In this document: positions 11,514-37,280 of the stretch, piece by piece | How positions within the stretch are numbered: the stretch's first letter is position 1 | Layout of the letters: every line of letters starts with the position of its first letter | Assembly: GCA_023481175.1 (NCBI GenBank) | Contig: JAMCWM010000026.1 | Location: 1 to 64,000, forward strand | DNA length: 64,000 nt | Direction of reading: 5' to 3' | Origin: Nitrospirota bacterium | Lineage (GTDB): Bacteria > Nitrospirota > Leptospirillia > Leptospirillales > Leptospirillaceae | Notes under the pieces: model-generated | Told to the model about the DNA's origin: nothing | What the model saw: only the letters and a program-made list of their open reading frames with translations | The model's database searches: none | Position numbers and translations under genes: made by a program

Positions 11514-14500
11514 ATGGTGGACCCGCCTTTGTCTCGCCTTCGTCTCCTGGGGTTTCCCACCGTCTTCCGGGACGGGCGGGACCACTCCGTTCCCGTCGTC
11601 GACAAGCCCTGGGCCCTCCTGTTCTACCTCGCTCTGGAACGGGGCCCCCAGCCCCGGGAGGCTCTTGTCCCCCTTCTCTGGCCGGACAAGAGTCTCCGCG
11701 CAGGCCGCGCCAATCTGAGCGCCACTCTCTACACCCTGGGCCGCTGGTTCGGCCCGGCCCTTCCCCTCGACAAATCCCCGGACGCCCTCGCCTTCCGCTC
11801 CCCCCTGTCCGGCCAAACGGAGGATCCGGTCGATGCGGTGGAATTTTTCTCGGACCGTGCCCCCGCCTCCTGCGACCGTCTCCACGACCCGGCCTTCTGT
11901 CCCGACTGCCGCGCTCTTCTGGCCGGACGTCTCGCCCTCTTCCGGGGCTCCTTCCTCGAGGGGGCCTTCCTGCGTGCGCCGGAGCCCTTCCTCCGCTGGA
12001 CAGAGCTTGTGGGGACAAGGGTCTCCGCCCGGAGGGAGGAGCTCCGGCGGCGTCTTGGGGATCCCGGTCTTTCGGCCAGGGTCTCCCCCTCCCTTTCCGG
12101 CCCTTTTCTGGAGCGCCGCCAGATCACCCTTCTCGCCTTCCTTCTCTCCGCTCCTTCCGATCTTGAGCCCGAAGAAAGGCTCGAGGCGGAGCGGGCCTGG
12201 CGCCCTGCGGCGGAATCGCTCCTCAGAACCGGGGGAGGATGGCTTCTGCCGTCCGTCGAGTTTTCCCTTCTCGCCGCCTTCGGCTTCCCGAAGGCCCGGG
12301 AGGAGGCGGCGCCGGGGGCCTTCCAGGCGGCCCGGGCAGTCATCCGGGCCTTCCGGGAGCTGGCGCCGGAAGGACTTGAAATCCGCGCAGGCCTTCATGC
12401 GGGGGAGGGCACGGTCGACTGGTCCCGGAACTCTCCCGACGCGACCGGAGACCGGACCCTCGAGGCGGGTCGGGTGGCCCGGGAAGCCCCGTCCGGGGAG
12501 ATCGCCGCGAGCGACGCGGCCGTCCGGCTCCTTTCCCGCGTCGCCCGGGCGATTCCGCTCGGGAAGAGCGTTCCCGACAGGACCGGCGGGAAGATCGATC
12601 TCTTCCTCCTTGCGGAGGGGGTACCCCCGGAGACGGGAGGCGAACGTCTCCTGGTGGGCCGGGAAGAGGAGCAGGCCCGCCTCCGGGAACTCTGGACGGA
12701 GGTGGGCCGGGGGATCTCCCGGACGGTCTGGATCGTGGGGGAGGCCGGTCTCGGGAAATCCTCCCTGACCGGAGCCATGGCGCGTCTGGTGGCGTCGGGG
12801 GCCGAGATTCCGGCGGGAAAGGTTCGGAACTATTGCTGCCGCCCCGGATCCCGGGAGATCCCCTGGGATCCGGTGGCCCGGGGGCTTCGCCGCGACCTGG
12901 AGTTCGAAGGCGAACGGCTGATTCCCTCCGAGCGCCGCTACCGGGCGGAACGCCTCCTTCTCTCCCTGGATCTGCCCGTGTCGGAGACCCTTCCGGTCCT
13001 CCTCCATCTTCTCGAGGGTCCCGGTCCCTGGTCGGGCGATCTTCTTCGCCATCCCCCCGAGGGACTGGGGCCGAAGATCGAGCGCCTCCTCCTCACGATT
13101 TTCGCCCGTCCGGAGGGGGACCTCCCGCTTTTTCTGGTGGTCGAGGACCTTCACTGGGTCGACCACGCCACGGGAGAGCTTCTCCGGAAATGGCCGCTCC
13201 GCAAAGAGGGTCCCCCCGTCCTTCTTTTGCTCACCGCCCGGGAGAAGTCCGCCCTGACCTCCCGCCTTCTTCCCGAGCCCGATCTCATCCTTCCTCTTCG
13301 CCGGCTCGACCGGGGGGCCAGCCGTCTCCTGGTCGAGTCGATTTCCGGGGGATCCCTTCCGCAAAGGCGCCTCCGGGAGATCCTCGATCTCGGGGAGGGG
13401 GTTCCGCTTTTTCTCCGGGAGCTCGCCCGCTCCGGTTCGACCGACCGTCTTCCCGCCACGGTCCGGGATCTTTTGGCCTCCCGCATCCCCGATCCGGGAG
13501 AGGACCGGGAGATCGTCGAAGCGGCCGCCTGCCTGGGCGGGCCCTTCGAGTGCTCTCTCCTCGCGGCGGTCGTGGCGGCCCGGGCCGGCCTCCCTCTCTC
13601 CGTCGACAGGGTCCGGGAGCGCCTCTCTCTTCTCGGAGAGCAGGGAATCCTCGAGGAGGACCGACCCGGCTCCGACCCGGTCTTCGATTTCACCCATGCC
13701 CTTCTCCGGGAGGCGATCGTGGCGGCCCTCCCTCCCGGACGCCGGCGGGCGCTTCACGGCATCATCGCCGGAACTCTCCGGGACAAATTCCCCGAGCGGG
13801 TCGCCCGGGCCCCGGAAATCCTGGCCGAACATCTGGAACGTTCCGGGGATCGTCCGGGATCGGTGGCGGCCTGGATCACCGCCGCCGGGCGCTCCGCCTC
13901 CCTGGGGGCCTTCCGGGACGCTCTGGAAGATCTCGAGCGGGCCCTCTGTCTGTTCCGGAAAGACCCGAAGAGCGGAGGCGATCCCGTCCGGGAACTCGAG
14001 ATCCTCCTGGCCATGGGCCCTCTCGCCCTGGCCGTCCATGGATACGGGTCTCGAAGGGTGGAGGAGGTCTACGGGCGCGCCTTCGCCCTCTGCGGGGAGG
14101 CCCTGGGACGCGCCCTCCCCTTTCCCGTCCTCCTCGGGGTGGCCGCAAGCGCCTTCACCCGGTCGGGCCCTTCCGGGGCGCGTCCCTTTATGGAACAGCT
14201 CGAACGCCGGGCCGGGGAGACGGGAGGGGAGGAGGCCAAACGGGCGATGGCCCGGATCGGGGCGGCCAGGTTCTGGGAGGGGCGGCTCTCCGGGGCGGAG
14301 GAATGTCTTCTGGAGGTGCTCGCCTCCCCGTCTCCCGCCCGGGATCCGGAGCGCGGGGAGAGCCTCCTCCTCCCCTATGCCGAGGATCCGGCGGTCGGGG
14401 CCTTCTCCTATCTCTCCTTTTCCGCCCAGATCGCGGGACGGGCGGAGGAAGCCCTCCGCCTGTCGAAAGAGGGGGAGCGCCGGGCCCGGGAGATCGACCA

Positions 14501-22363: not shown

Positions 22364-23806
22364 TCATTCCTCCCCGGAAAGAGGGGAGGGTTCATCCCTG
22401 TCCGGCCTGTCCGGATTGATGAGGGGATGCGTTTCGACGCTGCCGAAGGCGACCCACAGCCCGGAAACGAAGAGAAGACCGGCCGTGATCCAGAAAAGAA
22501 CGGGGATCCGCTGGGTCCATTGTCCCGCGGCCCCCAGAACCACCGCCCCTATCGCATATCCGAAATCTCTCCAGAAACGGTAGGTTCCCAAGGCCTTCCC
22601 GCGCCAGACCGCGGGAGAAATATCGGCAACCGCGGCGATCAGGTTCGGATAGAGAAGAGCCATGCCGAGGCCCATGACGACCGCCCAAAAACACCAAAAG
22701 GCCTTCGTTTGGCTTTCCACAGTTCCAAGAATTCCCAGAGCCAGGCACCAAAGGCCGGAAACGATGACGGGCTTTCGGCCGATCCGGTCGGACAGAACGC
22801 CGGTCCCCAACTGGGCGACTCCCCACACCATCGCATAGAGTCCCGTGATCCATCCGATGGAGACGATATCGAGCCCCTGCCTTCGGAAAAAAAGAGGAAC
22901 AATCGCCCACACCAGCGTATCGGCCACCTTGTTGGCGACGCCGGCCTGGGACAGAGCCCGGAATGTGGGGTGGCGGAACGAGACCAGAAGAAAGATGGCC
23001 CCGGCGGAAGACTGATCCGGAACACCCTTGGGAAAGCGGGGTCTCGGTCCGAAGGATCGGTTTTCCTGATAGTCGGCATGTTCGGCCTTGGCCCAGAAGA
23101 GCGTCTCCCGGACAAACAGAAGCGCCGTCGCCAGCGCCAGAAGGCATACGGCCAGTCCCCAAACGAAGAGGGCGGGCCGGGCGCCCCACAGGGAGGCCAG
23201 GTATCCCGTGGCCACACCGGAAACCCCCACCGCGAGATATCCCGCGAATTCGTTGATGCCGGTGGCAAACCCCCTCTGTCCGGGTCGGGTGATGTCGATC
23301 TTGCTGGTGACCGTCATGGTCCACGCCAGGGCCTGGTTGACGCCGAGAAACACGTTCGCCCCGACGATCCACCACCAGTCGGGCGCCCACAGGATGAGGA
23401 ACGGCACCGGGATTCCGAAGCACCACCCCAGAATCAGGACCGGTTTCCGCCCGATCCGGTCGGCCAGTGTTCCTCCCGCGAAATTGAGCGCGCTTTTGAC
23501 GAGCCCGAAGGAAAAGATAAAAGACAGGAGAAAAAGAAGGGAGGCAGGAGCGACCCCGAAATCGCGATGGGCCAGACTCGGGAGGACATTCCGTTCCATC
23601 CCGATCATGAGGCCCACGAAAAAAACCTGGAGAATCTGGTGCAAAAATTGACCCAGGTTGACCCGGATTCCCCGACGGTAAGGCCGTTCCCCCTCACCCA
23701 TCGGATTCGCTTCATGGCCTCCGTGAGGACCGGGGGCCTTCCCCCGCTGGCGGCCTGTCTCCAAAGTCGGCTCTTCCTCCTCCCGGATTCCTCCCGTCAA
23801 CGACAT
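22364..23806 (-). CDS. MFS transporter, third gene of the ArsR-rhodanese operon
   Basis: A 480-aa major facilitator with about 12 predicted spans. The loop motif GGTLADRIGRKP lies between spans 2 and 3, with a second copy GVLSDRIGRKP in the C-terminal half. The substrate cannot be read from sequence; similar carriers beside sulfur-detoxification genes may export sulfite or related anions, which is inference. The ATG at 23806 lies within the end of the upstream hydrolase gene (10-base overlap), preceded by GGGGAGA, so translation is coupled. The frame stays open upstream only as antisense-like sequence. The C-terminus is a charged cytoplasmic tail. Confidence 0.85.
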   Translation of the reverse strand: MSLTGGIREEEEPTLETGRQRGKAPGPHGGHEANPMGEGERPYRRGIRVNLGQFLHQILQVFFVGLMIGMERNVLPSLAHRDFGVAPASLLFLLSFIFSFGLVKSALNFAGGTLADRIGRKPVLILGWCFGIPVPFLILWAPDWWWIVGANVFLGVNQALAWTMTVTSKIDITRPGQRGFATGINEFAGYLAVGVSGVATGYLASLWGARPALFVWGLAVCLLALATALLFVRETLFWAKAEHADYQENRSFGPRPRFPKGVPDQSSAGAIFLLVSFRHPTFRALSQAGVANKVADTLVWAIVPLFFRRQGLDIVSIGWITGLYAMVWGVAQLGTGVLSDRIGRKPVIVSGLWCLALGILGTVESQTKAFWCFWAVVMGLGMALLYPNLIAAVADISPAVWRGKALGTYRFWRDFGYAIGAVVLGAAGQWTQRIPVLFWITAGLLFVSGLWVAFGSVETHPLINPDRPDRDEPSPLSGEE

Positions 23807-24537
23807 TCTCCCCGGTTGACGGCGACGATCCGCTCCATCTCTCCGGGTACGGGCGGGATATCGGAAAGGACCGCGCGGATGAAGGACTCCCGGTCCGGGG
23901 AGGAGAGGAGGGGGTTGGTGCGCTTTTCGAATCCGAAGGTCGAAGACGGCTTCCCCGAGAGGCCCTTCCCGCAGACAGAGCCGGACGTATGCGCCGGATA
24001 AATCTCGATGTGGTCCGGAAGGGGGAGAATTTTCTCCTGGAGGCTGTCGAAAAGCTGTCCGGCCCATTCTTCGGAATGGCCCCCCAAGTCCGGCCGGCCG
24101 ACCGCCCCCACGAAGAGGGTGTCTCCGGTGATGGCGAACCAGGGCTCATCGCCCCTTCTCCGATCGGTGACCAGGAGGCAGAGACTGTCCGGGGTATGCC
24201 CCGGTGTATGGATCACCCGGATTCCCACGTTCCCTGCTTCGATGAAATCATTGTCGCGAAGCGGGTGGAACGGGAATCGGACCAGCGAGGCGTCGCTTTC
24301 GTGAAGGGCGTATCGGGCGCCCACCCTCTCCGCAAGGTTTCGGCCGCCCGAATAATGATCCGCATGGATGTGCGTGTCGATCACATGGGTGATGGAGACA
24401 TTTTCCATCCGGGCCTGTTCGAGGAACATCTCTTCGTCTCCGGCAACCACGTCCACGGCGACCGCCTTTCCCAGAGTCGCGCACCCAAAAAAATAGGAAA
24501 GGGAGGATTCTTTGGTGCGAATCTGTCTGAAAAACAT
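23797..24537 (-). CDS. Persulfide dioxygenase-like metallo-hydrolase (ETHE1/Blh type)
   Basis: A 246-aa metallo-beta-lactamase-fold protein. The metal box THIHADH is near residue 56, TPGHTPDSLCLL near 111 and TGDTLFVGAVGRPDL near 137, and PAHTSGS near 183 supplies the last histidine. The GRPDL segment is typical of ETHE1-type persulfide dioxygenases, which oxidise glutathione persulfide to sulfite. It sits between an ArsR-rhodanese protein and an MFS carrier, a context typical of sulfide/persulfide detoxification. A good GAAGGAGAAGAG ribosome site precedes the ATG. A fragment of a close relative is at 19.5 kb. Confidence 0.87.
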   Translation of the reverse strand: MFFRQIRTKESSLSYFFGCATLGKAVAVDVVAGDEEMFLEQARMENVSITHVIDTHIHADHYSGGRNLAERVGARYALHESDASLVRFPFHPLRDNDFIEAGNVGIRVIHTPGHTPDSLCLLVTDRRRGDEPWFAITGDTLFVGAVGRPDLGGHSEEWAGQLFDSLQEKILPLPDHIEIYPAHTSGSVCGKGLSGKPSSTFGFEKRTNPLLSSPDRESFIRAVLSDIPPVPGEMERIVAVNRGECR

Positions 24538-24605
24538 CTCTTCTCCTTCACGTTAAGGTATCGCCGCCTTTCCCCCGACACTCCGGACAGACCGGCCGTC
24601 TTGAC

Positions 24606-25268
24606 CTATCGGGCCAAGGAAAGACCCCGCGCCCGCCATTCCGCGACCCCGTCTTCCAGACGCACGGCGTCGAATCCCTCCTGAGACAGTATGCCCACCG
24701 CCTCCTTGGCCATCAGGCAGAAGGGGCCCCGGCAATAGGCCACGATCATCCGGTCGCCCGGAAGCTCCGAAATCCTCTGCTTCAATTCGGGCAGGGGGAT
24801 GGAAAGAGCGCAGGGAAGATGGGCCGTTTGGTACTCGGCCAAAGGGCGGACATCGAGGACGACGACTTCGCCCTTCCGGGCCTTCCGGAGCAGTTCCCGG
24901 CCCGAGACCGGAGACAGCTCCCGGGGATTCGAAAGCAGCGTTATCATTGTCGCCCGGAGTTCGTGGAACCGTTCTTCGGCCAGCGTCCGAAGAGCCACCC
25001 AAAGGTCCGCCACATGATCGTCGGAGAGCCGGTAAAACATGTTCTTGCCGTCCCTTCGCCAGGAAACCAGATTCGCCCCTTTGAGCTCCTTCAGGTGGGC
25101 GCTGGCAAGCTTGATCGAGATTCCGGCCTCGACCGCAAGCTGATCGACGCATTTTTCGCCCTGAGAGAGAAGTTCGATCAGTTCCAGCCGCTTCGGGCTT
25201 CCCAGGGACTTTCCGATCCGGGCCACCTGTTCGTACAGAAATGTCTTTGTCTCCCGATGGTCGCTCAC
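24606..25268 (-). CDS. ArsR-family regulator fused to a rhodanese domain
   Basis: A 220-aa fusion. Residues 1-95 are an ArsR winged helix (LIELLSQGEKCVDQLAVEAG, then ASAHLKELKGANLV). Residues 115-215 are a rhodanese domain with EVVVLDVRPLAEYQTAHLPCAL and the active-site loop AYCRGPFC, whose cysteine can accept a persulfide. Such fusions could sense reactive sulfur directly through the rhodanese cysteine; that is inference. It starts with GTG preceded by AAGGAGAG. A 20-base palindrome lies 34 bases upstream. It is the first gene of a three-gene operon. Confidence 0.88.
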   Translation of the reverse strand: MSDHRETKTFLYEQVARIGKSLGSPKRLELIELLSQGEKCVDQLAVEAGISIKLASAHLKELKGANLVSWRRDGKNMFYRLSDDHVADLWVALRTLAEERFHELRATMITLLSNPRELSPVSGRELLRKARKGEVVVLDVRPLAEYQTAHLPCALSIPLPELKQRISELPGDRMIVAYCRGPFCLMAKEAVGILSQEGFDAVRLEDGVAEWRARGLSLAR

Positions 25269-25441: not shown

Positions 25442-25537
25442 ATGTCGGGGATCATGAAAGAGGTCGGTGCGAAGAGGCTGCCGGAAGAGTTTGCGAGGGG
25501 GCATCCTGATCGCCACGAAGAGGAACGGGATCCGTAA
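25442..25537 (+). CDS. Possible 31-residue leader ORF
   Basis: AAGGAG lies about ten bases before the ATG at 25442. The 31 codons begin MSGIMKEVGAKRLPEEF, end in a His/Glu-rich RHEEERDP and stop at TAA 25535-25537. The good ribosome site is the main argument; there is no homologue I recognise. It precedes the copper island by about 70 bases and could be a leader peptide, or chance. Confidence 0.28.
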   Translation: MSGIMKEVGAKRLPEEFARGHPDRHEEERDP

Positions 25538-25610
25538 AAAAAGCCCCCGACAGAAGGACGGACGACTCTGCCTCTTGACACGATCCCAGAGATGCTCCAT
25601 GCTTTTGCCT

Positions 25611-26039
25611 ATGAATAGGATTGGAAGGTTCAGGAAAAATTTTGTCTGGCTCGTTTTTCTTGTGGGGTTCGTCTGGCTTCTTCCGGGAACCGGAACACCG
25701 CCTGCCGCTTATGCCATGTCTCCGATGGGAGCGTCTCTCCATTCCTCAAAAGGGACGACCCCCTCTTCCTGCCCGATGAAGGGGCGCCTTCCCTGTTGTC
25801 GCCACAAGGCCCAGGTCTCCCTCTGCCGGGCCTCGCTATGCGACCTTTGCCTTCTGTCCCATCCCCGTCTGCCGGGGATCGTCTCACAAACCCAAAGGCT
25901 TCAGGCGCCTCTCGCGCGCGTCTTCATCGCTTTCGAATCCGTCCTCCCGGCGGCTTTCCACAACGGGATTCCGATACGCGCGCCCTTTCCCCCCCGATTT
26001 TCCTTTGCCCCCTCGGTGAATCGCCCTCTCCTGATCTGA
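25611..26039 (+). CDS. Small exported Cys/His-containing protein heading the copper island
   Basis: A 142-aa protein with a clear signal peptide: RKN, the hydrophobic FVWLVFLVGFVWLLPG, and a cut after AYA. The mature part starts MSPMGASLHSS and contains SCPMKGRLPCCRHK and CRASLCDLCLL, that is seven cysteines plus Met and His in a short span. The composition suits metal binding, and small exported proteins of this kind (CopL-like) are common upstream of copper operons, but no family is certain. TTGACA at 25575-25580 may belong to its promoter. It is followed 60 bases later by the cusC-type gene. Confidence 0.6.
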   Translation: MNRIGRFRKNFVWLVFLVGFVWLLPGTGTPPAAYAMSPMGASLHSSKGTTPSSCPMKGRLPCCRHKAQVSLCRASLCDLCLLSHPRLPGIVSQTQRLQAPLARVFIAFESVLPAAFHNGIPIRAPFPPRFSFAPSVNRPLLI

Positions 26040-26098
26040 GATCCCCCCGTTCGATAAAAACCGGTTTTTCACACCGTTTTTTAACATGGGGAGGATTT

Positions 26099-27526
26099 AT
26101 GGCATTCCTTTGGATTTTGTTCTTCGGGGGAAACCCCCCTAAAGGGTTTCCCCCCTTCAAGACCAGACAGCAATTGGCCATTCACAACGCCCGAAATATC
26201 GCCCATCTCCTGATTTGCCTGGCAGGGCTTCTGTCCATTTCGATGCCGTGGAGCTTCGAATCGGCCCTGGCGTGGGCCGATTCGCCTCCCGCTTTGGAAG
26301 TTCTCCCTCACCCGGGGGCCTCCCTCCCTGTCCTCACTCTCGATCAGGCCATTCGTCAGGCCCTGGACAGGAACCCGGAACTCGCCCGCGACAAAGCCGT
26401 CATCGCCCGGAACAAAGCCCGATCTGTCGAGGTCAGGGAACTTCCTGATCCCAGGATCGTCGTAGGGGAGGAGTATTTCCCCATCAGCTTCGACATGGGG
26501 GAAAGCCTCCTGGCCATGACAACCGTGGGGATACGACAGGACTTCTCCCCGTGGGGAAAGAGAGCTCTTGTCGGCCGAAGCGCCCGTAAAAAGGAAGCCG
26601 CTTCCCGATGGGAGCTGGAGGACAAGAAGGCTTCTCTCGTCCGAAACATCCGCCTCGCCTGGCTCGACTATGTCGGGGCCCGGCGGACCCGGGATTTTCT
26701 CAAGTCGATCGGTGCGCTCTGGGAGAAAGCCTTTCAGGCGGCCCTGGTCCGCTATCGTCAGGGGATCGGCCCGGAATCGGACGTCCTTTCGGCCCAGTTT
26801 CAGAAAGACGACATTCGGGACAGGCAGGAAGGCCTTCGGATCCAGGAGGAAGAAAGTCTCCATCGCCTGATGCGCCTCATGCATTTCTTCCGGCCCTTCC
26901 GGATATCGTCCGAGGAGCCGCGCATTCCGGATCCCTTGCCGGAGGCCGTCCTTCTTGAGCGGCTCGAGGCCCACCCGTCCCTCGAATCCCGGGACGCGAG
27001 AGATGCCTCCCAGGCCCTTCTCGTCCGGGCCGCCGAAAAAGACAAGATTCCCGCGTTCAGCGTCGAAGGCGACTACAACTATTTCATGGGACCGAGTCCG
27101 ATCACGGCGACACCCAACCTGTTTTCCCTCGTGCTGACCTTCAACCTTCCGGTTCGCCCCGGAGAGCGCCAGGACCAGAAGATCGCGGAAAGCGAGCATG
27201 AACTGGAAGCTCTTGAAGCCGAACGGGAAAATCTGCGCCAGAAACTCATCGAAGAGATCCGGAATACGGAAGAGGCCTACCGGCTCCTCGGACGACGGGC
27301 GGTTCTTCTGCGTCAGGATCTCCTTCCGGAGGCCGACAGGAATATGGACGCCGCGTTGATCGGCTACAGAACCGGCACGGAAGGGATGGGACAGGTCCTG
27401 TCCGCGATGAAAAAGGTCGAGACGACCGGAATCCGCGAACTTTCCAACCGCATAGACCGGCTCAAGACAAAGGCCGAGCTTTCCTATCTGGCCGGAGCGA
27501 CTCAGGGAGGATCCCGTGAACCGTAA
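26099..27526 (+). CDS. CusC-type outer-membrane efflux channel (TolC family)
   Basis: A 475-aa outer-membrane factor. After an N-terminal export region (hydrophobic core HLLICLAGLLSISMPW near residues 38-53), it has the TolC repeats: TLDQAIRQALDRNPELARDKA, long coiled helices, LFSLVLTFNLPV and a second ...RQDLLPEADRNMDAALIGYRTG half. It forms the outer-membrane exit for the Cu/Ag pump. GGGGAGGA precedes the ATG at 26099. The first 20 codons contain a perfect hairpin (26126-26154), and the signal peptide begins unusually late, so a downstream start cannot be excluded. It overlaps cusB by 11 bases. Confidence 0.87.
   Translation: MAFLWILFFGGNPPKGFPPFKTRQQLAIHNARNIAHLLICLAGLLSISMPWSFESALAWADSPPALEVLPHPGASLPVLTLDQAIRQALDRNPELARDKAVIARNKARSVEVRELPDPRIVVGEEYFPISFDMGESLLAMTTVGIRQDFSPWGKRALVGRSARKKEAASRWELEDKKASLVRNIRLAWLDYVGARRTRDFLKSIGALWEKAFQAALVRYRQGIGPESDVLSAQFQKDDIRDRQEGLRIQEEESLHRLMRLMHFFRPFRISSEEPRIPDPLPEAVLLERLEAHPSLESRDARDASQALLVRAAEKDKIPAFSVEGDYNYFMGPSPITATPNLFSLVLTFNLPVRPGERQDQKIAESEHELEALEAERENLRQKLIEEIRNTEEAYRLLGRRAVLLRQDLLPEADRNMDAALIGYRTGTEGMGQVLSAMKKVETTGIRELSNRIDRLKTKAELSYLAGATQGGSREP
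26126..26154 (+). promoter_or_regulatory. Perfect 11-bp hairpin inside the start of the cusC-type gene
   Basis: GGGGGAAACCC at 26126-26136 pairs exactly with GGGTTTCCCCC at 26144-26154 around a seven-base CCCTAAA loop. There is no T-run, so it is not a simple terminator. It lies 27 bases after the chosen ATG and could act on translation or mRNA stability. Confidence 0.5.
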
Positions 27527-28775
27527 ATTCATTTCTCTTGTTGTTGTTCTTTCCCTCGCGGCCGGAGTCGCGATCGGCGCCATCGGGGTCCGGTGGTTTT
27601 TTCATACCAAAAATCTGGAGTCAAAAGACCGGCGCTCTCCGGGACAATCGGGACCCACCATCCTCTACTGGCGCAACCCGATGAATGCCAGCATCCATTC
27701 GGACCATCCGATGAAGGACAACATGGGCATGGACTACATTCCCGTCTATGCCGAGCCTTCGGAATCCAACAAAAAATCCGTATCGGTGGACCCCCGGATC
27801 CGGCAAACGCTGGGAATAAGGGTCGTCCCTGTGGTGCGGCGGACCTTTTCGCGCACGATTCATGCGGCGGCGACCGTCGGCTTCGACAGGCACCGGAGCC
27901 GGACGGTGTCGACACGGTTCCGGGGCTTTATCCAGGAACTGTCCGTCCGGGCGCCGGGAGACGCCATCCGCAAGAATGACCTTCTGGCCCGTGTCTATTC
28001 TCCCGAACTCGCCAGTACCGAGGACGAAGCACTGATCGCCCTCGGTGCGACCCGTGCCGATCCGGCATCCGGCGACAACCGAAAACTTTTTGAAGCCGCC
28101 CGGGAACGACTCCGTCTCCTGGGAGTTCCGGATTCAGAGATCGACCGGCTGGAGAAAACCGGGAAGCCGCAGTCGGTCATCCCGGTCCGTTCGCCCTATT
28201 CAGGGACCGTGTCATCGATTTCCGTTCGCGTGGGAGGCGCGATTCTACCGGGCATGACGCTGATGACCCTGGAGGATCTCACCCGGGTCTGGGTCGATGT
28301 GGCTCTTTACCCCGCCCAGCTGGCCTGGGTCAAGCCGGGAGATCGTGTGGCTCTCCGGGTTCCGGCCATGCCTTCCAGGATTTATCGGGGAATCCTCCGC
28401 TTCGCGGATCCGGAACTCAACGGCAAGAGCCGGACCGTCCGGGCCCGGGTCCTTGTCGACAACCCGGACGGGTTCCTGAAGCCCGGGATGTATCTCGAGG
28501 CCACCTTGCATCCGGATCCCCTTTCCAATGTTCTTGTCATTCCCCGGGAGGCCCTGATCCGCACGGGAACAAAGACAGTCGTGATCACCGAAATCGGACG
28601 GGGACACTTCCGGCCGGCAAGCGTGACCGTCGGCGCCCGCTCCTCACATTGGGTCGAAGTCCTTTCCGGACTTTTTGAAGGAGACAAGGTGGTCGTCAGC
28701 GGAGAGTTCCTCCTCGATGCCGAATCCCGGTTCGAAAACGTGTCCGAACGGATGGCGAAAGGGGGAAGGCCATGA
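27516..28775 (+). CDS. cusB: CusB-type periplasmic adaptor
   Basis: A 419-aa membrane-fusion protein. An N-terminal anchor (FISLVVVLSLAAGVAIGAIG) is followed by a heavy-metal-binding domain (ILYWRNPMNASIHSDHP...GMDYIPVY, residues about 49-79), then the beta-barrel/lipoyl regions with VSVDPRIRQTLGI, PYSGTVSSISVRVGGAILPG and FLKPGMYLEATL. CusB links CusA to CusC and passes Cu(I)/Ag(I). It starts with GTG inside the end of the upstream gene. The stop overlaps cusA in ATGA. Confidence 0.92.
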   Translation: MNRKFISLVVVLSLAAGVAIGAIGVRWFFHTKNLESKDRRSPGQSGPTILYWRNPMNASIHSDHPMKDNMGMDYIPVYAEPSESNKKSVSVDPRIRQTLGIRVVPVVRRTFSRTIHAAATVGFDRHRSRTVSTRFRGFIQELSVRAPGDAIRKNDLLARVYSPELASTEDEALIALGATRADPASGDNRKLFEAARERLRLLGVPDSEIDRLEKTGKPQSVIPVRSPYSGTVSSISVRVGGAILPGMTLMTLEDLTRVWVDVALYPAQLAWVKPGDRVALRVPAMPSRIYRGILRFADPELNGKSRTVRARVLVDNPDGFLKPGMYLEATLHPDPLSNVLVIPREALIRTGTKTVVITEIGRGHFRPASVTVGARSSHWVEVLSGLFEGDKVVVSGEFLLDAESRFENVSERMAKGGRP

Positions 28776-31700
28776 TCGCGCGCATCATCGATTTGTCGAT
28801 CCGGAGGAGATACTGGGTCCTCGCCCTGTCGCTCCTTCTGCTGGGGTGGGGCGCGGTCTCCCTGATCGAAAGTCCCCTCGACGCCATTCCGGACCTCTCC
28901 GACACCCAGGTCATCGTCAAGACCGTCTACCAGGGGCAGCCCCCGTCCGTCGTGGAAAACCAGGTCACCTATCCCCTTGCGACCGCTTTCCTGACGATCC
29001 CCGGGGTCCGGCATGTCCGGGGTTACTCCGACTTCGGAAACTCCCTCATCTACATTCTGTTCAAGGAAGGAACCGATCAATACTGGGCGCGCTCCCGGGT
29101 CCTGGAATACCTGAATCAGGCGGAAAGCCGCCTTCCGCAGGGGGTCACCGCCACGCTGGGACCCGACGCCACCGGCCTGGGATGGGTTTATGAGTACGCT
29201 CTTGTCGATCGCACCCACCGATACGATCTCTCCAGGCTTCGGGCTCTCCAGGACTGGTTTATGAAATTCGAACTCCAGAGCATCCGCGGAGTGGCGGAGG
29301 TCGCTCCCGTCGGCGGGATGGTGAAGGAATTCCAGGTCGAAGTGGACCCCTTGAAGCTTCTCGCCTACCACGTCAGCCTCCCCCGGGTGGAGCGGGCGAT
29401 CCGGGCTTCGAACGGGGATGTGGGCGGGTCGGTCGTGGATATGGGCGAAGCCCAGTACATGGTCCGGACCCGCGGATACATCCGTTCCCTTTCGGACATC
29501 CGGAACATCCCGCTCGCGGTCGGGGTCCGGGGGGACCCGGTCCGTCTTTCCGACGTGGCCGACGTCCATTTCGGCCCCGAACTGAGACAGGGGGTGGCGG
29601 AGCTCGATGGCAAGGGCGAAGTCATCGGCGGCATCGTCATCGTCCGGGGCGGCTCCAATGCGCTCGACGTCATCCGGGAGGTGAAGAAAAAGATCAGGTC
29701 GCTTTCCCCGATGCTGCCCCCCGGGGTCGAGGTCGTCACAACATACGACCGTTCGCGGCTGATCCAAAACAGCATCCGGAATCTTCTGGAAAAACTCCTG
29801 GAAGAGTCGATTGCGGTGTCCCTGGTCTGCCTTTTGTTCCTGTCCCGGATCCGATCCTCCCTGGTGGCGATCCTGAGCCTTCCGGTCGGAATTTTTGCGG
29901 CCTTCGTCCTGATGGCCCGCCAGGGCCTCACCGCCAACATCATGTCTCTCGGCGGAATAGCGGTATCCGTCGGGGTGATGGTGGACGCGGCGATCGTGAT
30001 GATCGAGAACATGCACAAACACCGGGAGCACGGGGGGGACGCGGAAAGTCCCTGGAACACGGCTCTCCGCTCCGCCCGGGAAGTGGGACCGTCTCTTTTC
30101 TTCTCGCTTCTTGTCATCACGGTTTCGTTTCTTCCGATTTTCGCCCTTCAGGAACAGGAAGGCCGGCTCTTCAAACCCCTGGCGTTCACTAAAACCTACT
30201 CCATCGCCATTTCGGCCGCCCTTTCGATCACGCTGGTCCCGGTCCTGATGGGATTTCTGATCCGGGGAAGGATCGCTCCGGAACAGGACAACCCCCTCAA
30301 CCGGATCCTGATCTCTCTCTATAGGCCGGTGATCGGATGGGCGCTCAAACACCGTCGCTTCACGCTTCTGATGGCCGGAGGGCTGCTCTTGACGGCTGTC
30401 ATACCCCTTTTGCATCTGGGGACGGAATTCATGCCCCCGCTCTATGAGGGCGATCTTCTGTATATGCCGACCCTGACGCCCGGCGTTTCCGTGGGAGAGT
30501 CGGCCCATCTTCTCCAGATCACCGATCGCCTGATCCGTACCGTTCCGGAAGTGGATCGGGTCTTCGGGCAATCGGGCCGCGCGGAAACCGCGACCGACTC
30601 GGCGCACCTCACGATGTTCGACACGGTCGTAACCCTCAAGCCCCGGAGCCGGTGGCGCCCCGGGATGACCCTTTCCCGCCTCAGGGAAGACCTCGACCGG
30701 GTCGTCGCGCTTCCGGGGGTCTCGAACATCTGGACGATGCCGATCATCAACCGGGTCAACATGCTGTCGACCGGGATCAAGTCTCCGCTCGGCCTCAAGG
30801 TCACGTCCCCTTCCCTCGACACGATCGACCGGGTCGACCGGCAAATCCGGAACGTGTTGCAAAAGCTTCCGGAAACCGCCTCGGTGTATGCCGACCGGCT
30901 TACGGGAGGACGCTATATTTCGGTGGACATCCATCGGGTCCGCGCGGCCCGGTACGGACTGAACGTCGACGACGTGAACCGCATGGTTCGCACCGCCATC
31001 GGCGGAGAGACGTTGACGACAGTGGTCCGGGGCCGCGAACGTTTTCCCGTGAACCTCCGGTTCCCCCGGGATGAGAGAGGATCTCTGGACGCCATCGGGT
31101 CCTTGCCGGTTTCCACGCCGGGCGGGGGGCAGGTGCCCCTTTCCCGGCTCGCCTCTCTCGCGATCGAAGACGGGCCGACCATGATCAAAACCGAAAATGC
31201 CCGGCTGACGGGGTGGATTTACATCGACATCAAGGGAGGCGACCTGGGGGGGTATGTTTCCCGCGCCAGAAAGGCGATCGCCCGTTCCGTCGCCCTTCCG
31301 CCGGGAACGACCCTCACCTGGTCCGGACAGTACACCTCGATCGAGCGGGCCCGCAAGAGGCTGGCTCTCGTGCTGCCCTTCACCCTCCTGATCATCGTCG
31401 CCCTTCTTTATGTCCATTTCCGAAGCGTCGCCAAGACGGGCATCGTTCTTTTGTCCCTGCCGTTCGCTGTCCTCGGCAGCCTGTGGTTTCTCTATGGCCT
31501 TCATTACCGGCTGTCGGTGGCCGTGGTCACCGGAATGATCGCGTTGGCCGGCGTGGCGGTCGAATTCGGGATCGTGATGATCCTGTATCTCGACCGGTCC
31601 GTCGAGCGGCGCATGGAGGAAGGAAGGCTCGCGACGCCGGAGGACCTCGATCGGGCGATCGTCGAGGGAACCCTCTATCGTCTCCGGCCGATCGCCATGA

Positions 31701-31921
31701 CGGGAACCGTGATCCTCGCGGGTCTTCTTCCGATCATGGTGAGTCACGGGACCGGGTCGGACGTCATGAAACGGATCGCCGCCCCGATGGTCGGCGGAAT
31801 GGTGACGGCGATCGCACTGAGCCTTCTGGTGATCCCCGTGCTTTACAGACTGTGGAGGCAGAGGCCGACATCCGCCGCATCGGTGCAAGCGGCGGACAGG
31901 AGCGGGGATCTCCGCAACTGA
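28772..31921 (+). CDS. cusA: CusA-type heavy-metal RND efflux pump
   Basis: A 1049-aa HME-RND transporter of the inner membrane, driven by protons. It has 12 spans with two large periplasmic loops. The first span region reads RRRYWVLALSLLLLGWG, the first porter domain opens PLDAIPDLSDTQVIV, and the TM4 acidic segment reads GGIAVSVGVMVDAAIVMIEN. MLSTGIKSPLGLKV is closer to CusA (Cu/Ag) than to the zinc pump CzcA. Methionines in the cleft suit Cu(I)/Ag(I). Start ATG overlaps the cusB stop by four bases. The cusF-type gene follows 51 bases downstream. Confidence 0.94.
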   Translation: MIARIIDLSIRRRYWVLALSLLLLGWGAVSLIESPLDAIPDLSDTQVIVKTVYQGQPPSVVENQVTYPLATAFLTIPGVRHVRGYSDFGNSLIYILFKEGTDQYWARSRVLEYLNQAESRLPQGVTATLGPDATGLGWVYEYALVDRTHRYDLSRLRALQDWFMKFELQSIRGVAEVAPVGGMVKEFQVEVDPLKLLAYHVSLPRVERAIRASNGDVGGSVVDMGEAQYMVRTRGYIRSLSDIRNIPLAVGVRGDPVRLSDVADVHFGPELRQGVAELDGKGEVIGGIVIVRGGSNALDVIREVKKKIRSLSPMLPPGVEVVTTYDRSRLIQNSIRNLLEKLLEESIAVSLVCLLFLSRIRSSLVAILSLPVGIFAAFVLMARQGLTANIMSLGGIAVSVGVMVDAAIVMIENMHKHREHGGDAESPWNTALRSAREVGPSLFFSLLVITVSFLPIFALQEQEGRLFKPLAFTKTYSIAISAALSITLVPVLMGFLIRGRIAPEQDNPLNRILISLYRPVIGWALKHRRFTLLMAGGLLLTAVIPLLHLGTEFMPPLYEGDLLYMPTLTPGVSVGESAHLLQITDRLIRTVPEVDRVFGQSGRAETATDSAHLTMFDTVVTLKPRSRWRPGMTLSRLREDLDRVVALPGVSNIWTMPIINRVNMLSTGIKSPLGLKVTSPSLDTIDRVDRQIRNVLQKLPETASVYADRLTGGRYISVDIHRVRAARYGLNVDDVNRMVRTAIGGETLTTVVRGRERFPVNLRFPRDERGSLDAIGSLPVSTPGGGQVPLSRLASLAIEDGPTMIKTENARLTGWIYIDIKGGDLGGYVSRARKAIARSVALPPGTTLTWSGQYTSIERARKRLALVLPFTLLIIVALLYVHFRSVAKTGIVLLSLPFAVLGSLWFLYGLHYRLSVAVVTGMIALAGVAVEFGIVMILYLDRSVERRMEEGRLATPEDLDRAIVEGTLYRLRPIAMTGTVILAGLLPIMVSHGTGSDVMKRIAAPMVGGMVTAIALSLLVIPVLYRLWRQRPTSAASVQAADRSGDLRN

Positions 31922-31972: not shown

Positions 31973-32356
31973 ATGAATCGCCTGGCAAAACGGATGACAG
32001 CAGTGACGGGAACGTTCTTCGGAGTGATCCTTGCCGGCACGGTGGCCGTGGCGGACGACACGGGGGAGATGAACGGGATGCCGGGCATGACGTCCGGGAG
32101 GGGCGGACATGCCGCCGCGCAGGCTTTGGTCGGTCACGGCAGGGGAGTCGTAAAAAACATTGATCCGAAGGCCGGGACGGTCACCGTCAAACACGGGCCG
32201 ATCAAGGAGTTCGGCTGGAGCGGCATGACCATGACCTTCAGCGTAAAACATCGATCTTTCCTGACCCCTCTCAAGAAGGGAGATCCTGTCGCCTTCGAGG
32301 TGACAAAGGACAGGGAGGGTCATTACACGATCACGAAGATCCGTCTGGTACATTGA
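31973..32356 (+). CDS. cusF: CusF-type periplasmic copper chaperone
   Basis: A 127-aa exported protein with a signal peptide (cut near VAVA). A Met/Gly/His-rich segment (GEMNGMPGMTSG) follows, and then the CusF OB fold: GVVKNIDPKAGTVTVKH, GWSGMTMTFSVK and PLKKGDPVAFEV. The His, Trp and two Met that bind Cu(I) or Ag(I) by cation-pi and thioether contacts are present in KHGPIKEFGWSGMTM. CusF hands metal to CusB. A strong AAAGGAGGAAAATC precedes the ATG. Confidence 0.93.
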   Translation: MNRLAKRMTAVTGTFFGVILAGTVAVADDTGEMNGMPGMTSGRGGHAAAQALVGHGRGVVKNIDPKAGTVTVKHGPIKEFGWSGMTMTFSVKHRSFLTPLKKGDPVAFEVTKDREGHYTITKIRLVH

Positions 32357-32378
32357 AGAAGGGCACAGGGAGGAAAAA

Positions 32379-32750
32379 ATGATGGACCGGAGGCAGGCTT
32401 TAAAAAAGATGATCGTGACGGCGGCGGCGATTGTGTTTTACCGCCTTCTGGCCGTGGAGGGGAAGGCTCAGGCCGGGCCCGCCCCCTCGCCCCCGCCCCG
32501 CAAGGTCGACAAAAAGACCGCCCATTACCAGGACCGTCCGCTGGATGGGAAGATGTGCATGAATTGCCGGTATTTCGTCCCCCCCGAGGGGATGTCGTCC
32601 ATGATGGACAACATGCGACAGGGCATGGGGGGAATGAATGGCATGAACGGCTCAGGGAGCATGGGAAGAATGATGGCGGGAGAATGCACGGTTGTCGCCG
32701 GTCCGATCAGTCCCATGGGGTATTGCCGATTCTATCAGGAAATACGCTGA
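32379..32750 (+). CDS. HiPIP-family iron-sulfur protein with a methionine-rich insert
   Basis: A 123-aa exported protein. DRRQALKK near the start followed by MIVTAAAIVFYRLLAV is a Tat-like signal. Cysteines at 60, 63, 103 and 116 in MCMNCRYF, GECTV and PMGYCRFY match the four-cysteine cluster of high-potential iron-sulfur proteins (CxxC ... C ... C). Between the second and third cysteines, residues 72-99 are an insert with ten methionines interspersed with Gly, Asn and Ser (MSSMMDNMRQGMGGMNGMNG). HiPIPs are small periplasmic electron carriers. The Met-rich loop suggests a copper site, which is inference. The gene follows cusF by 22 bases with AGGGAGGAAAA as ribosome site. Confidence 0.85.
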   Translation: MMDRRQALKKMIVTAAAIVFYRLLAVEGKAQAGPAPSPPPRKVDKKTAHYQDRPLDGKMCMNCRYFVPPEGMSSMMDNMRQGMGGMNGMNGSGSMGRMMAGECTVVAGPISPMGYCRFYQEIR

Positions 32751-32880: not shown

Positions 32881-33291
32881 ATGAACATGCGTCTTGTACT
32901 GGTGGCTGTTATTGTTATTCTGTTGGGGCTGTCCCCGGCGCTCGCGAATGCCGCCAATCCTTACACAATCCTGATGGATCAACGGATGGAGCAAGCCCAG
33001 CACAAGCTGGATCTGGCCCGGAAAAAGGAAGGAGCGGAACGGGAAAAACTGGTCCTCCAGAATCTTGATCTCATGAAGAAGAACCTCGGTCTGATGTCCA
33101 AAAATATGGAGAAAATGGACAATCGACTGGAAAAAATGATCCCGAAATACCGAAGCCTGCATCACCGTCGCATGGCGGAAATGATGCAAGCCATGATCGA
33201 GGAACACCGGTACGTTCTTGCCGTTCTGAAACAGATGGTGGAAGGAGTGGAACTTCGCCATCCTTCTTTGAACAAGGGCGCCGGGAAATAG
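32881..33291 (+). CDS. Exported Met-rich helical protein, unknown family
   Basis: A 136-aa protein with a signal peptide (LVLVAVIVILLGLSPALANA). The mature part is almost all helix, with heptad-like patterning: MEQAQHKLDLARKKEGAE, LMKKNLGLMSKNMEKM, HHRRMAEMMQAMIEEHR. It holds many Met and several His, as in CopM/CnrX-like or Spy-like periplasmic sensors and chaperones, but no family is certain. A GGAAGGAGAAATCGTC ribosome site precedes. It lies inside the copper island and probably binds copper or protects periplasmic proteins; both are inference. Confidence 0.7.
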   Translation: MNMRLVLVAVIVILLGLSPALANAANPYTILMDQRMEQAQHKLDLARKKEGAEREKLVLQNLDLMKKNLGLMSKNMEKMDNRLEKMIPKYRSLHHRRMAEMMQAMIEEHRYVLAVLKQMVEGVELRHPSLNKGAGK

Positions 33292-33544: not shown

Positions 33545-36097
33545 ATGCAAAACCCGGAGAGGGTCCCTTCATTGGAGGGATCGGATTCTTTGGATCCTGT
33601 CTGCGGAATGAAGGTAAGGGGCAAAGGGGCAAGGGGCGACAGCTTGTATCGGCATTCATACGAGGGCGGCGAGTTTCTGTTTTGCAGCGATGTCTGTCTC
33701 GGCAAGTTTCTGAAAGAGCCGGAACGATACATGAATCCGGCGTCGGGCCGGACTGGGGACAGGCATGATGGCGGCCTCACTGGACGCGTTTATCCGGTTG
33801 GCGCAGTCTCGGCCGATCATTCGCACGAGGATGAGGTAACCGACCGTTGTCACGACGACATCGGTGATATCGGCTCGACCTTCTCTTGCCCCATGCACCC
33901 GGAGGTTCGTCAGCAGGGGCCGGGGACCTGTCCCCAGTGCGGCATGGCGCTGGAACCGGTGGAAGCACCGGTTCCTTTGGACCGCATCTTCTACACCTGT
34001 CCCATGCATCCGGAGATTGTGCAGGATCAACCCGGCAACTGCCCCAAGTGCGGCATGGCACTGGAGCGCCGCACCGCGGGGGGGGAGGAAAGGAATGAAG
34101 AACTGATCGACATGAGCCGGCGCTTCTGGGTAAGCACGGGGCTTGCGACCCCTGTATTCCTGCTGGCAATGCTTTCGGATCTCTCCCCTCGATGGTTGCC
34201 TGGGGGGCTTTCCATGCACGCCGTTCAGTGGATCGAGGGCCTTCTCGCGACTCCAGTCGTGCTATGGGGAGCTTGGCCGTTTTTTGTGCGTGGCTTCCAG
34301 TCCGTGGTGACCTGGAATCTGAACATGTTTACCCTGATCGGTCTGGGGATTTCGGTCGCCTGGGCCTACAGCGCGGTCGCCTTGCTGTTTCCGGGACTAT
34401 TCCCTCCCGACATGCGGATGGCGGGTGGAACGGTGGATGTCTACTTCGAGGCGGCGGCAGTCATCACCGCACTGGTCCTTCTGGGCCAGGTGCTGGAACA
34501 AAGAGCCAGGAGCAATACCAATGCGGCCATCCGGTTGCTGCTCGGGCTGTCTCCCAAATCTGCGCGTGCCGTACGTCCGGACGGAACGGAAGAGGATATC
34601 CGCCTCGATCGGGTCAAGCCCGGGGATACCCTGCGTATCCGTCCGGGAGAGAAAGTGCCGGTTGACGGGATCGTGCTCGAAGGCCTGAGCAATGTCGACG
34701 AATCCATGATGACCGGGGAGTCCGTTCCGGTTCCCAAGACGGGCGGAGACCGGGTGATCGGCGCCACGATCAACGGGACCGGAAGCCTGCTGATGCGCGC
34801 CGAGAAGGTGGGCACGAACACCTTGCTGGCGCAGATTGTCCGCATGGTCGGCGAGGCCCAGCGCTCCCGCGCGCCGATCCAGAAACTGGCGGACATGGTC
34901 TCCGGATACTTCGTCCCGGCCGTGGTGGGCGTGGCGGTGATCGCCTTTGTTGCGTGGTTTTTGTGGGGGCCGGAACCTCGTCTGGCGCACGCCGTCGTCA
35001 ACGCCGTGGCGGTGCTGATCATCGCCTGTCCCTGCGCTCTGGGCCTGGCGACTCCCATGTCGATCATGGTCGGGACCGGCAAGGGGGCCACCTTGGGCGT
35101 GCTGATCAGGAATGCGGAGGCTTTGGAAATCATGGAAAAAGTCGACACTCTCGTCCTCGACAAGACCGGGACCCTGACCGAAGGCAAACCCACACTGGTG
35201 GCGGTGCAGGCGGCGCAGGGGTTTCGTGAGGAAGGGGTTTTGAGTCTGGCCGCGAGTCTGGAGCGCGCCAGCGAACACCCGCTGGCCGAGGCCATCGTGC
35301 GAGGCGCCGAGGCCAAAGGGACAACGTTGTTGCCGGCCGAAAACTTTCAGTCGGTCACAGGGGAAGGGGTGGCCGGAGAAGTCGATGGCCACGCCGTGGC
35401 GCTTGGCAACCTCAAATTGATGGAGCGTCTCGGCATCGCATCGGACGACCTGCAGAAACAGGCGGATCCTCTGCGGGGGGAGGGACAGACGGTCATGTTT
35501 CTGGCCGTTGACGGCAAGGCCGCCGGTCTGATCGGCGTCGCCGATCCTGTCAAGATCTCCACGCCCGAAGCCATTCGAGACCTGCACCATGAAGGGCTCA
35601 CGATCGTCATGCTGACCGGTGACAGCCGCACGACGGCCAGTGCCGTGGCGAAGCGCTTGGGGATCGACCGTTTCGAGGCCGAGGTTCTGCCCGAACAGAA
35701 AGCCTGGATCATAAAACAGCTTCAAAGCGAAAACCGTGTGGTGGCCATGGCCGGAGACGGAATCAACGACGCACCGGCGCTGGCTCAGGCCCATGTGGGC
35801 ATCGCCATGGGAACCGGCACCGATATCGCCATGGAAAGCGCCGGTGTCACCCTCGTGAAAGGGGATCTGCGGGGCATCGTGCGCGCCCGGCGCCTGAGTC
35901 GCATCACCATGGGCAATATTCGCCAGAACCTGTTTTTTGCGTTTATCTACAACGCCGTGGGAGTGCCCATTGCCGCCGGTGTGTTGTACCCCATTTTCGG
36001 GCTGCTGCTTTCGCCGATCATCGCCGCCGCGGCAATGAGCTTCAGTTCGGTTTCGGTGATCGGCAACGCCTTGCGCCTGCGTCATGCGAAAATATGA
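33545..36097 (+). CDS. copA: Cu(I)-exporting P1B ATPase with YHS and two metal-binding N-domains
   Basis: An 850-aa P-type ATPase exporting cytoplasmic copper. The N-terminus is modular: a YHS domain (DPVCGM...EFLFCSDVC, residues 17-60), then two heavy-metal-binding domains, FSCPMHPE...[10 protein letters not shown] near 114-140 and YTCPMHPE...CPKCGMALE near 150-176. The core has TGES near 390, CPC in the membrane near 495, DKTGT near 538, SEHPL near 576 and GDGIND near 737. [11 protein letters not shown] and MSFSSVSV near the end are typical Cu(I) transport-site residues. There is no classic CxxC HMA domain. It appears intact. Confidence 0.95.
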
Positions 36098-36437: not shown

Positions 36438-36635
36438 GACAGCCGGAGACCTCCGGTTCGAAAGGTCCCGATCCTTTAAAGCCATGGGCAGGAATCGATC
36501 GAAGAAATCTTTCAGCAGCGCCTTCGGTCGGACTCTTGGAGGAGTCCGGATCAATCTCGGCCTCTTCACTCATGTCAGCGGAGATCGATCTTGCGGGGGT
36601 CGTCCGATCGACGCCTGTCACCGGATGACCTCCTG

Positions 36636-37280
36636 ATGGATGCCGCTTCTTATGACAGATGGTATGAAACTCCGAGAGGACAATGGGTCGGAGAAGCGGA
36701 ATATCGTCTGATTTCCCGATCTCTCGAACCCCGACCCGGCGATTCGCTCTTGGACGTGGGATGCGGGACCGGATGGTTCACGCGCCGTTTTTTTCGGAGC
36801 GGGCTCCACGTCACCGGCCTCGATCCGAATCTTGAGTGGCTCGCCTATGCCCGTGACCGAAGTCCCGATGCGATTCACTGGGTCGGGGGAGAGGCTCGAG
36901 CGCTCCCTTTTCCCGATCGAACCTTCGATCTTGTGGTTTCGGTCGCCGCCCTGTGTTTTGTCGATGACGAACATCGGGCAGCGGGAGAAATCGTACGGGT
37001 GACGGATCGCCGATTTGCCATCGGTTGGCTCAACCGCGAGAGTCTTCTTTTCAACCTAAAAGGTAAAAATGGAGGCGTCGGATCTTATCGCGGAGCCAGA
37101 TGGCACCGGCCGGAGAACCTTCTGGATCTTTTTACCGGTTTGCCCGTAGCCAGGCTGACGGTCCGTTCTGCGGTCTTCCTGCCATCAGGATCTGCGTTGG
37201 CGAGAGGAGTCGAGAAGATTATGCCCGATAGGGTGCTCCGTGGGGGGTTGATCATTGTATCGGGAGAAAGACTCTCTTGA
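36636..37280 (+). CDS. Class I SAM-dependent methyltransferase
   Basis: A 214-aa methyltransferase. The SAM-binding glycine loop is LLDVGCGTGWFTR near residue 47, motif II acidic residue in VTGLDPNLEWL near 68, and ALPFPDRTFDLVVSVAAL near 101. The substrate is unknown; the fold is the ubiE/COQ5-like or Methyltransf_11 group. The ATG at 36636 is used since homology (YDRWYETPRGQW) starts there, though no strong ribosome site is seen. It follows the copper island but has no obvious link to it. No terminator was seen before the tRNA. Confidence 0.85.
   Translation: MDAASYDRWYETPRGQWVGEAEYRLISRSLEPRPGDSLLDVGCGTGWFTRRFFRSGLHVTGLDPNLEWLAYARDRSPDAIHWVGGEARALPFPDRTFDLVVSVAALCFVDDEHRAAGEIVRVTDRRFAIGWLNRESLLFNLKGKNGGVGSYRGARWHRPENLLDLFTGLPVARLTVRSAVFLPSGSALARGVEKIMPDRVLRGGLIIVSGERLS

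Follow-up and report, generated by a model that had tools for sequence, protein, structure and literature searches.

The window (the entire 64,000-nucleotide stretch of Leptospirillaceae DNA that we analysed) contains a cusCBAF-copA operon, within which stands a gene for a HiPIP-family protein. The features of the operon and of this gene are as follows:

25796–27526, + strand: CusC-like outer-membrane channel (listed ORF, true start probably later; conserved in syntenic loci)
27516–28775, + strand: CusB adaptor (Pfam and NCBIfam scans)
28772–31921, + strand: CusA RND pump (TIGR00914, 1162 bits)
31973–32356, + strand: CusF, periplasmic copper chaperone (PF11604, E = 6.9e-25)
32367–32373, + strand: Shine-Dalgarno-like AGGGAGG, read from the sequence, 5 bases before the HiPIP start
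32379–32750, + strand: HiPIP-family protein with a Met-rich C2–C3 loop (sequence, PDB and NCBIfam matches, homologues)
32379–32474, + strand: predicted Tat-type signal segment, approximately residues 1–32, with MDRRQALKKM, a hydrophobic stretch and AQA (twin Arg invariant in 12 homologues)
32556–32567, + strand: CMNC, putative cluster cysteines 1 and 2, residues 60–63 (sequence, homologues)
32592–32675, + strand: Met-rich insert, residues 72–99, ten Met (sequence, Met statistics, conservation)
32685–32726, + strand: putative cluster cysteines 3 and 4 (residues 103 and 116) with SPMGYC (sequence, homologues)
32881–33291, + strand: Met-rich exported 136-residue protein, co-conserved (ORF list, scans, synteny, Met count)
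33545–36097, + strand: copper-type P-type ATPase with YHS and HMBD domains (Pfam and NCBIfam scans)

The HiPIP-family open reading frame encodes 123 residues from an ATG at 32379, starts 22 bp after the cusF stop codon and is the only copy of this gene in its genome. As the sequence-only reading had proposed, it lies between cusF and the gene for a Met-rich exported protein, and its four cysteines (residues 60, 63, 103 and 116; C-x2-C-x39-C-x12-C, the first two in the motif GKMCMNC) bear out the HiPIP pattern claimed for it. The segment between the second and third cysteines is indeed stretched to 39 residues, with ten Met in 28 (residues 72, 75, 76, 79, 83, 86, 89, 95, 98 and 99); the Met stretch is followed by ECTVVAGPISPMGYC. 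With a Met background of 2.6%, taken from five neighbouring proteins, the probability of at least ten Met among 39 residues is 4e-8. Together with conservation of the loop in 13 copies (see below), this rules out chance or composition as the source of the Met richness. In all six frames, the HiPIP loop is the most Met-rich 39-residue stretch of the window and the second is in the downstream exported protein. A plasmid origin was also considered and rejected, the sole matches being weak ones to ordinary HiPIPs of Haloferax.

Several neighbouring genes deserve description in their own right. The 136-residue exported protein has 14 Met and no trusted family, and adjoins most HiPIP copies; it is possibly another copper-binding protein. 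The copper ATPase carries a YHS and two HMBD domains at its N-terminus. The cus operon is headed by an ORF at 25467–26039 whose product seems to carry a signal segment and has a tail containing Cys, Met and His (SSCPMKGRLPCCRH); there was no Pfam match for it. Upstream of the operon, at 23797–25268, are a divergent ArsR-type regulator–rhodanese fusion and a metallo-beta-lactamase-fold protein.

The window protein scores 12.8 bits against Pfam HIPIP (PF01355), below the gathering threshold of 22, because the insert splits the match; this is a limit of detection rather than of biology. The NCBIfam Iro model (NF041615) matched with E = 2.9e-8, split over two stretches; at 33.9 bits against an equivalog cut-off of 100 bits, the protein is ruled out as an Iro orthologue. 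In a single-sequence search of the PDB only HiPIP chains were matched (PioC at 8e-5), and with a family profile the matches were PioC (2e-6), 3h31 (1.2e-4) and 1isu (2.7e-4), both flanks of the insert being aligned. Since the PDB matches are exclusively HiPIPs and lie on both sides of the insert, we take the window protein, by sequence, to be a HiPIP. It agrees with the family's cysteine pattern, including the G[WY]C ending after C-x12-C. Tyr50 (before the first Cys), Phe66 (after the second) and the GYC are invariant in 12 homologues; aromatic residues of the Tyr50/Phe66 kind have a described role in HiPIPs, in cluster packing (PMC10512742). Pfam and NCBIfam scans found no Cu-oxidase domain in the protein, and AlphaFold2 models from two runs had pLDDT values of 47 and 38, the alignment being too shallow. 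Together, the sequence matches support a HiPIP-type product for 32379–32750, in which one [4Fe-4S] cluster would be expected.

A contig scan with the single HiPIP sequence returned no match; an alignment-based scan did find relatives. There are 13 intact Met-loop HiPIP copies in 9 of the 61 genomes searched, and all nine carriers, Leptospirillaceae-type acid-mine MAGs, belong to the window's family. All 13 copies keep the four cysteines, a C3–C4 spacing of 12 and the twin Arg, and have a loop of 36–42 residues with 8–13 Met. Among the 21 genomes of the family, 15 of 15 full CusF copies have the HiPIP gene or a remnant of it just downstream (a further, sixteenth match to CusF, G019:C94, is fragmentary, lying at the end of a contig, and falls outside the 15), and no HiPIP copy was found without CusF. 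Wherever the contig is long enough the family copies share a conserved order with cusCBAF, namely cusC-B-A-F-HiPIP-Met136 (Met136 being the 136-residue protein); one genus has cusC-B-A-F-Met136-HiPIP. Two of the loci, L027 and L041, have only a decayed HiPIP remnant after an intact cusF, so the HiPIP gene can be lost whilst the pump stays. The Met-loop HiPIP is thus firmly tied to the copper operon in Leptospirillaceae, and the copper-operon setting first suggested by the window stands on every full CusF copy.

The pattern of conservation distinguishes parts of the protein. Across the 12 homologues all four cysteines and the twin Arg are invariant, so the protein probably still binds a cluster and is still exported folded. 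Three Met next to the cluster cysteines (M59, M61 and M113) are likewise invariant. Within the loop, identity to the window is 84% at Met positions, 67% at Gly and 30% at the remaining residues; the difference between 84% and 30% indicates that selection keeps the Met. The dN/dS ratio is 0.31 for the insert and 0.11 for the core and, together with the Shine-Dalgarno-like sequence and the homologues, rules out a misread frame or a truncated gene.

We also looked for long-loop HiPIPs beyond the family. A search around Proteobacteria MAGs (235 genomes) recovered ordinary HiPIPs, with loops of 8–16 residues and 0–1 Met, and long-loop ones, with 27–39 residues and 2–9 Met. Further draws, one with 369 genomes from the class and another with 399 from the phylum, yielded just three carriers of this group (G062, with a short loop, G272 and G070), all other matches being ordinary HiPIPs. 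In two Proteobacteria MAGs a HiPIP with a short loop containing GMGGMC lies downstream of cusF, in one case with a full cusCBAF. Most gammaproteobacterial long-loop HiPIPs have a 27–28-residue loop with 2–5 Met; these adjoin CbbQ/CbbO-type, nusA/IF2-type or other non-metal genes, and no Cus, CopA or Mer gene was found within ~7 kb of them. The five with 8–9 Met are mostly in metal loci: L080 comes after cusCBA, L081 (9 Met) sits in a CopA/CueR-like/MerA/bufferin island, L089 adjoins a heavy-metal RND pump and L078 has a mer cluster in its vicinity; for the fifth (L090, 8 Met) no metal gene was found nearby. This association between Met count and metal loci was noticed post hoc, among related sequences. 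The original proposal had made an insert in HiPIPs with no link to copper count against it. An exclusive link to copper is thus refuted for the short form of the loop (27–28 residues, 2–5 Met), near which no metal gene was found, but not for the Met-rich form. Two other features of these gammaproteobacterial loci may be recorded. The island in L081 includes a match to a BufA2-type bufferin metallophore (12347–13087). In the window, a SAM-dependent methyltransferase is encoded downstream of the copper ATPase (36591–37280), and relatives of it (~46–60% identical) lie within ~1–3 kb of gammaproteobacterial HiPIPs of the long-loop clade in L079, L084, L086, L088, L092 and L097.

A tree was built on 73 columns with the insert excluded; with so few columns and long branches, it groups all the long-loop HiPIPs and the two short-loop cus-linked ones as one clade with support of 98/94. 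This clade spans Leptospirillaceae and gammaproteobacteria, and within it the Leptospirillaceae copies are a single clade (100/95). Linkage to cus requires three changes on the tree, versus ~13 in shuffles. Constraining all cus-linked HiPIPs to one clade gave p-AU = 0.36, which is compatible with either a single origin or several origins of the linkage.

We conclude that the Met-loop HiPIP is a previously undescribed HiPIP variant recruited to copper handling. As to what it does there, judging from sequence and context the loop likely binds Cu(I), and redox coupling of the HiPIP to copper is plausible. HiPIPs are known from photosynthesis, respiration and iron oxidation, where they act as soluble carriers. 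At strongly acidic pH, where Cys and His are protonated, Cu(I) can still be bound by thioethers. Our preferred reading, which we hold tentatively, is of a Tat-exported HiPIP with the Met loop as its Cu(I) site and with Cu(I)-to-cluster electron transfer serving Cus. The C2–C3 loop would have been turned into a flexible Met-thioether site. It would capture Cu(I) in the periplasm, which is very acidic, and keep it near the high-potential cluster, such that an electron could move between copper and cluster. The direction we favour is that Cu(I) would be oxidised and its electron would go on to the cytochrome pool. The sequence, the loop, the conservation of its Met, the signal motif and the operon linkage are observed; that the protein holds a cluster, binds Cu(I) and passes electrons, and which way these go, we infer. 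A stronger proposal seems to us somewhat unlikely: that copper held in the loop and the [4Fe-4S] cluster trade electrons directly, making this a dedicated copper-redox iron-sulfur protein, a copper-detoxifying redox module other than a multicopper oxidase, spread among acidophiles of two phyla.

Of the alternatives, the one that survives best is that the loop only binds up Cu(I) or hands it on to CusF/CusCBA, on a HiPIP fold that serves as a scaffold, compact, stable in acid and exported by Tat, but plays no redox part in copper handling. The neighbouring CusF and Met-rich exported protein are themselves plausible buffers, and the number of Met is held whilst loop length varies from 36 to 42. 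However, there is no variation in the four cysteines, Tyr50 or Phe66, and dN/dS for the core is 0.11, a constraint that a scaffold would not obviously need, and we regard a pure buffer as unlikely. It is more doubtful still that the long loop is a general trait of acidophile HiPIPs (for partner docking, acid stability or Met scavenging of oxidants) and the copper operon coincidental. The 98/94 clade does include members without metal genes nearby, and the gammaproteobacterial 27–28-residue loops suggest that the loop may have had another reason to arise; but the Leptospirillaceae gene never occurs without cusF, Met rise to 8–13, and separate gammaproteobacterial members with 8–9 Met are again found in a cus or metal context. 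Least probable is a cupric reductase, passing electrons from respiration or iron oxidation via the cluster to Cu(II) to yield Cu(I), the form exported by Cus: CusF and CusCBA handle Cu(I), and the hosts presumably oxidise iron and are exposed to Cu(II), but Cu(I) is the more toxic form and making it would be risky. Replacement of a multicopper oxidase is unsupported: PF07732 occurs in 4 of the 9 genomes with the HiPIP versus 5 of the 12 without, a presence unrelated to the HiPIP gene that gives no indication of such a role. The multicopper oxidases examined scored well below the cut-offs for CopA, CueO and nitrite reductase.

If the preferred reading of copper-to-cluster electron transfer is true, the Met-loop lineage would tie copper resistance in the periplasm to electron transfer by iron-sulfur proteins, in organisms related to those used for copper bioleaching. 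In the type strain of L. ferriphilum, Cus proteins rise on chalcopyrite (PMC5772234). The Met-loop HiPIP makes a simple testable case: a single protein, small and soluble, for which nature supplies loops ranging from 0–1 to 13 Met. The suggestion that no protein of this kind had been described agrees with the open-access literature searched, where we found no paper joining HiPIP with methionine-rich and copper; the few mentions of HiPIP with CusF or copper efflux were unrelated in the texts examined.

Compared with known systems, the protein shares with the HiPIP family (PF01355; Iro of Acidithiobacillus, PioC) Tat-type export, the C-x2-C...C-x12-C pattern with G[WY]C, a Tyr ahead of the first Cys and sequence similarity to PDB entries. 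Whereas the ordinary C2–C3 loop has 8–16 residues and 0–1 Met, that of the Leptospirillaceae variant has 36–42 and 8–13; the variant also differs in being encoded in a cus operon and in falling below the Pfam and Iro cut-offs. The gammaproteobacterial long-loop HiPIPs (L078–L101) fall in one clade with the Leptospirillaceae copies on insert-free columns but, unlike them, mostly have shorter loops, fewer Met and no copper neighbours. With CusF and other periplasmic Met-type Cu(I) proteins the window HiPIP shares operon, compartment and, likely, Met ligands; CusF, however, is of another family (PF11604) and is without an iron-sulfur cluster. The closest functional parallel, by analogy only, is CueO, likewise a periplasmic copper-resistance redox protein in which a Met-rich insert lies next to a redox centre (PMC6155172). 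Cu(I) is bound by the Met-rich region of CueO, which gives the enzyme its cuprous oxidase activity; when the region is removed, that activity falls (PMC6155172). The Met loop and cluster may act as do the Met-rich segment of CueO and the adjacent T1 copper. CueO, however, has cupredoxin domains and T1/T2/T3 copper, which the window HiPIP lacks; with one presumed [4Fe-4S] cluster, the latter would by itself be incapable of reducing oxygen to water.
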